This document shows positions 5,501 through 5,806 of a DNA stretch of 9,543 nt, piece after piece. Origin of the DNA: Rickettsiales bacterium (GTDB lineage: Bacteria; Pseudomonadota; Alphaproteobacteria; TMED127). The position numbers and the translations under genes are program-made. Positions within the stretch are counted from its first letter, which is position 1; each line of letters opens with the position of its first letter. Where the stretch lies: NCBI GenBank assembly GCA_002706585.1, contig PALU01000039.1, forward strand, positions 2,992 to 12,534. Direction: 5' to 3'. Below the pieces are notes generated by a model. The model was not told where the DNA came from, ran no database searches, and was given only the letters and a program-made list of their open reading frames with translations.

Positions 5501-5528
5501 ATTCTAAATTATTCTAAATTATTCTAAA
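5499..5528 (-). repeat. Three perfect tandem copies of a 10-bp unit at the groES end
   Basis: The minus-strand unit TTTAGAATAA is repeated three times without a mismatch (5519-5528, 5509-5518, 5499-5508). The first copy contains the last groES codons and its normal TAA stop (TTA GAA TAA). The other two fill most of the groES-groEL spacer up to the groEL ribosome site. Replication slippage that duplicated the end of groES is the simplest explanation. Confidence 0.85.
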
Positions 5529-5596
5529 ATTCCCATTATGTCTGACTCTTTCATAATCAATAAGTCATCTCCATCAAGTTTAACTTCTGTTCCTTA
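5519..5596 (-). other. Premature TAA and conserved untranslated GroES tail
   Basis: TAA at 5594-5596 is followed in frame by 24 sense codons that match the GroES C-terminus (LLIMKESDIMG is unmistakable) and then the ordinary stop. The tail shows no frameshift or further stop, so the lesion is either very recent or not biological. Reassignment of TAA is unlikely because DUF2849, groEL and cysH all end on TAA. Confidence 0.9.
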
Positions 5597-5806
5597 CCAT
5601 TTTCCGAAAAGTATTTTATCACCTTTTTTAACATTCATAGGCTTTAACTTTCCATCATCGGCCATTTCTCCTGGTCCAACAGCAAGAACTTCACCTTCGC
5701 TAGGCTTTTCTTTTGCTGTATCAGGAATGATAATTCCACCAGAAGTTTTCTCATCAGTTTCAAGTCTTTTTACAACTACACGATCGTGTAAGGGTTTAAA
5801 TTTCAT
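5519..5806 (-). CDS. groS: GroES co-chaperonin, interrupted by an in-frame stop at codon 71
   Basis: GroES is the heptameric lid of GroEL. From the ATG at 5806 the frame gives a typical alphaproteobacterial GroES: KFKPLHDRVVVKR at the start, the mobile loop EKTSGGIIIPDT (about 19-30), EVLAVGPG, then GDKILFGKW ending at residue 70. Codon 71 is TAA (5594-5596). Beyond it the same frame continues with a normal C-terminus, from GTEVKLDG to DIMGILE, and a TAA at 5519-5521. The total is 95 codon positions, the usual GroES length. Relatives normally have serine at 71, so one C-to-A change in TCA would create the stop. If real, only a 70-residue fragment is made, lacking the C-terminal strands needed for a stable heptamer. 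A base-calling or assembly error is at least as likely. Identification is certain; functional state is not. Confidence 0.93.

Follow-up and report, generated by a model that had tools for sequence, protein, structure and literature searches.

Within a Cpn10 ring, each subunit contacts C-terminal residues of its neighbor through its N-terminal strand, and in the M. tuberculosis protein residues 5-11 lie against residues 94-97 (PMC2845623, in the portion available). Human Cpn10 in which Val 100 is changed to Gly still forms a heptamer, although a less stable one, so that, by that portion of the paper, not every C-terminal residue is needed (PMC2845623). The closest described system to the locus considered here is the bacterial GroES/Cpn10 (PF00166) groESL operon with CIRCE control. 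The window, by which we mean the whole stretch of 9,543 nucleotides of contig PALU01000039.1 that was analyzed, shares with this system the groES sequence, a full frame of 95 codons, the place of the gene before groEL, a CIRCE-like site and a conserved gene neighborhood (Table 1). It differs in an in-frame TAA at codon 71 of groES.

The window carries, in order, genes for a class I lysyl-tRNA synthetase (truncated at the start of the window), a DUF2849 protein, sulfite reductase, a DUF934 protein, groEL, groES, a CysN/C fusion, cysD and cysH, the last two being names chosen here for two proteins with a PAPS-reductase domain. All 25 of the 25 related loci show the same order over the part that each covers. 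Those that are named (L001 to L006) are listed as Alphaproteobacteria or Rickettsiales bacterium, with genomes of 1.1-1.6 Mb, and the related loci appear to belong to the marine HIMB59/AEGEAN-169 group. A search by term of two papers on that group found none of these genomes named. groES is upstream of and adjoins groEL, with 31 bases between its final stop and the groEL ATG; groEL had been described as intact, and its frame is indeed open throughout. A search for the CIRCE pattern, the consensus of which we took to be TTAGCACTC-N9-GAGTGCTAA, gave one match where a mean of 0.01 is expected by chance. None of the 22 related genomes compared has the three-copy repeat at the end of groES. We read the locus as the ordinary groESL operon of a marine alphaproteobacterium with a small genome, preceded by a CIRCE-like site.

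Table 1. Features of the groES region and of the contig end (positions are those of the window)
Feature	Position	Strand	Remarks
groES frame	5519..5806	-	95 codons plus stop; TAA interrupts at codon 71
In-frame TAA, codon 71	5594..5596	-	Serine in relatives
Conserved groES tail	5519..5593	-	Codons 72-95 plus normal stop codon
groEL	3823..5487	-	Open frame of 554 codons; GGM-rich tail at end
CIRCE-like inverted repeat	5858..5884		Upstream of groES; 1 mismatch to consensus
Perfect 10-base repeat, 3 copies	5499..5528	-	From groES end/stop into groES-groEL spacer
5' end of divergent cox15-like gene	9401..9484	+	Join at about 9470-9485
Eukaryote-type Hsp70 N-terminus	9470..9543	+	After cox15-like start; overlap MVAIG, 9470-9484

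Re-reading of the minus strand gave the same groES frame, with the same coordinates and the same TAA at codon 71, as the first-pass annotation. The frame starts with an ATG at 5806-5804 and ends with a TAA (codon 96) at 5521-5519. Codons 1-70 close on KILFGKW, codon 71 is TAA (plus-strand 5594-5596), and codons 72-95, behind the stop, encode GTEVKLDGDDLLIMKESDIMGILE. The open frame is therefore of 70 codons, not the uninterrupted frame of about 95 that a groES should have. Against the Pfam Cpn10 profile, the open part scores 93.1 bits (profile positions 1-69 of 93). Entering the stop as X gives 124.4 bits for the complete frame (positions 1-92 of 93), and a full-length match is obtained only in this way. 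The tail can also be aligned, over its length, with GroES chains of known structure. Its 24 codons and the expected stop behind them bear out the first reading, all 24 residues being identical to those of P0002, the closest relative among the matches listed. P0002 has 95 residues with serine at position 71, represents 54 member sequences and, besides residue 71, differs from the window groES in one residue (the protein alignment with P0002 took in 21 of the best 120 relatives listed).

A Cpn10 match is present in 26 of 32 genomes of the order of G001, and a full groES orthologue in 25 of the 26. None of these 25 has an internal stop, all have serine at residue 71, as had been expected, and 24 end exactly where the window frame ends. 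The codon is TCT in 17, TCA in three, TCC in one and TCG in one of 22 related genomes. The proposal that TCA became TAA by a single substitution is possible on these counts, but TCA is found in just those three genomes and such an ancestor is unproven. Residue 71 is also serine in 116 of the best 120 database relatives listed, the others having glycine (two) or leucine (two). A Cpn10 match occurs in 366 of the 385 genomes of a wider, class-level sample, with no internal stop among the matches listed. When 26 GroES sequences were compared at invariant columns, leaving out the divergent phage GroES-like sequence of L065, the stop at codon 71 was the only residue unique to the window.

No exact copy of the TAA stretch was found in the viral contigs searched. 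A CysNC protein query of the genome collection for the same species gave 16 loci, the nearest 65% identical in CysNC. The DUF934 protein, used as a query, has eight top matches of 84-94% identity, all others being at 75% or less; no strain-level copy was present among the cluster representatives, whose 90% clusters may hide closer members. A natural nonsense groES is not reported in the titles listed and abstract openings shown when the literature was searched for GroES truncation, nonsense and subunit contacts.

The sequence behind the stop is informative about the age of the change. Between the tail and its counterparts in the 22 related genomes, synonymous codon differences number 6-13 and non-synonymous ones 0-3 (7:0 with L023, 7:1 with L028). 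No further decay of the kind expected of a pseudogene, whether by frameshifts or by non-synonymous changes, was seen behind the stop. An old pseudogene is very unlikely from this pattern. The undecayed tail implies that the change is either very recent or absent from the cells. The former would be a real nonsense allele, carried by some cells in which this gene no longer supplies functional GroES and which are either a dead-end lineage or rescued by another groES elsewhere. A very recent mutation fits the intact tail, and we regard such an allele as somewhat unlikely but as the second reading of the data, the first being an error in the assembled sequence.

Reassignment of TAA to a sense codon in this organism has a negligible probability: nothing speaks for it beyond the in-frame TAA itself, and groES, groEL, cysH and the DUF2849 gene, all of which terminate with TAA, already contradict it, so that its dismissal in the first pass holds. 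The sulfite reductase, DUF934 and cysD genes terminate with TGA and cysNC with TAG. The exact coincidence of the groES end with those of 24 of 25 relatives and the wide use of TAA terminators among relatives also argue against reassignment. Among the other gene ends of the window, that of cysD agrees with 23 of 23 relatives; those shown for DUF2849 and DUF934 mostly differ by no more than a few residues, DUF2849 having two larger differences; and the groEL alignment halts in the repetitive tail, the distance from there to the stop being equal within two residues in the cases shown. Programmed or inefficient readthrough of the TAA, giving a mix of 70- and 95-residue proteins, would account for the perfect continuation of the frame past the stop. 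We give it only a very small chance, since TAA is a stop that ribosomes seldom read through and since a stop at codon 71 occurs in 0 of 25 orthologues, which leaves no sign of a conserved recoding signal. A search of the window for a suppressor tRNA found no tRNA at all.

A product ending at residue 70 would lack residues 71-95 and with them the contact between subunits, and loss of function is therefore likely, as judged from the part of PMC2845623 available. The lost part holds the C-terminal residues that contact the neighboring subunit in Cpn10 rings (PMC2845623, same part), which also weighs against a nonsense allele in living cells. The part of PMC10953559 available yielded nothing on C-terminal loss in GroES. 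It could be argued that the 70-residue form is itself a functional short GroES. Residues 1-70 fit the GroES family well and presumably include the mobile loop. The heptamer of human Cpn10 tolerates Val 100 to Gly (PMC2845623, in the same portion), which is in favor of a short form. The tail is, however, conserved in 25 of 25 genome relatives, and there is no 70-residue GroES among the best 120 relatives listed, in which 90% clusters may hide shorter members; the shortest of these 120 is P0073, of 76 residues and frameshifted in appearance. A functional short form is thus extremely improbable.

P0073 is also one of the two entries with leucine at residue 71. It comes from a contig of 255,834 bases and departs from the GroES family at residue 67, as if by a frameshift, near the position of the stop in the window. 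Two other entries, P0024 and P0037, have aberrant GroES tails and come from contigs of less than 600 bases. The existence of these three odd database entries is on the side of a base error in the window.

Cells with a nonsense allele could be rescued by a second groES. Exactly one Cpn10 match is found in 25 of the 26 order genomes that have any, and it is a full orthologue in 24 of these; a spare copy is therefore not the rule, which argues against the allele. The single match of G024 is a divergent, phage-type GroES-like protein of 157 residues (L065:4185-4658, minus strand), which belongs to PHROG 3188 (co-chaperonin GroES) and is encoded near a phage major head protein gene. In G010, a genome of 2.0 Mb, there are four Cpn10 matches; three are weak (29.7-43 bits) and possibly reflect contamination or phage genes. 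The phage-type gene of L065 and the three extra weak matches of G010 indicate that extra copies can exist, in favor of the allele. The other genomes of the order are of 0.9-1.6 Mb and have at most one Cpn10 match. That a living marine lineage has a genuine nonsense codon in its only chromosomal groES and is supplied with GroES otherwise, for example from a phage-borne GroES-like gene like that of L065 or by readthrough, is very improbable.

The quality of the sequence was also judged from the rest of the contig. Apart from groES, the contig appears clean: neither an internal stop nor a frameshift was seen in the other eight genes of the window. This counts against a base error; the lack of any other broken gene is likewise a point for a real nonsense allele. 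Internal stops seen in cysD of three relatives were dismissed, as they fall on residue 3 or residue 7 of the aligned part, ahead of likely start codons. Over the nine genes, the window has nine unique residues in otherwise invariant columns, and the 25 relatives have 0 to 24 (L065 was left out, and some relatives do not have all nine genes). The window is thereby above 18 of the 25 (median 2) and below seven (up to 24). With no close relative of the window in the set, this count can be called neither clearly high nor clearly low.

Among the relatives whose sequence extends upstream of cysH, 21 of 21 carry there a divergent cox15-like gene with the N-terminal pattern IGGITRLTDSGLSM or near it (L004 and L050 end before the gene and are outside this count); the copy tested, that of L001, matches COX15-CtaA with 309.1 bits. 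The cox15-like start of the window, at 9401, reads KDNKFLLTWLLINLILIIIMVAIG, and from 9485 the frame reads IDLGTTYSCVGWWKDNRCE, so that the last 59 bases leave the cox15-like gene for a eukaryote-type Hsp70 start. The best match of this part is Heat shock protein 70A of PDB entry 7n6g (E 8.7e-6). The Pfam HSP70 score, 16.5 bits, is below the cut-off of 20.6, as expected for 20 residues, and the fragment has no match in viral contigs. Since relatives carry the cox15-like gene where the window turns to eukaryote-type Hsp70, the contig very probably contains a misjoin. The stretch encoding MVAIG fits both genes and is a plausible site for it. This apparent joining of a bacterial to a eukaryote-type gene deserves flagging. 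It is about 3.9 kb from the TAA and at the contig end, and thus bears on the general reliability of the contig, not on the base at codon 71.

New biology is a far less likely source of the stop than a base error or a rare, isolated mutation. The first-pass annotation had left the choice among several origins of the stop open; the evidence now leans to an artefact, with the rare nonsense allele as the second reading. We consider it probable that the TAA is a consensus single-base error in the assembled sequence. The artefact is favored because groES has no other decay, the stop is absent from all 25 orthologues, order genomes mostly have a single Cpn10 match, and the contig end appears to be misjoined. 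The frame being intact on either side of codon 71, the serine of all related orthologues and the intact CIRCE-like site and neighbors also support a base error. The case resembles known assembly faults, namely misjoins and consensus errors at single bases, in having an isolated change at an invariant site in an otherwise intact gene, and the apparent misjoin at this contig's end adds to the likeness. Weighing against the error are, besides the clean state of the other genes, the six of 32 order genomes without a Cpn10 match, genome completeness not being given. On this reading the base at codon 71 would be wrong in the assembly, this groES is presumed to be the only copy, and the living population would make a normal GroES of 95 residues. 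Support from reads is needed wherever an assembled contig shows a lone nonsense codon in a conserved gene. A real and fixed allele would call into question whether GroES is indispensable.
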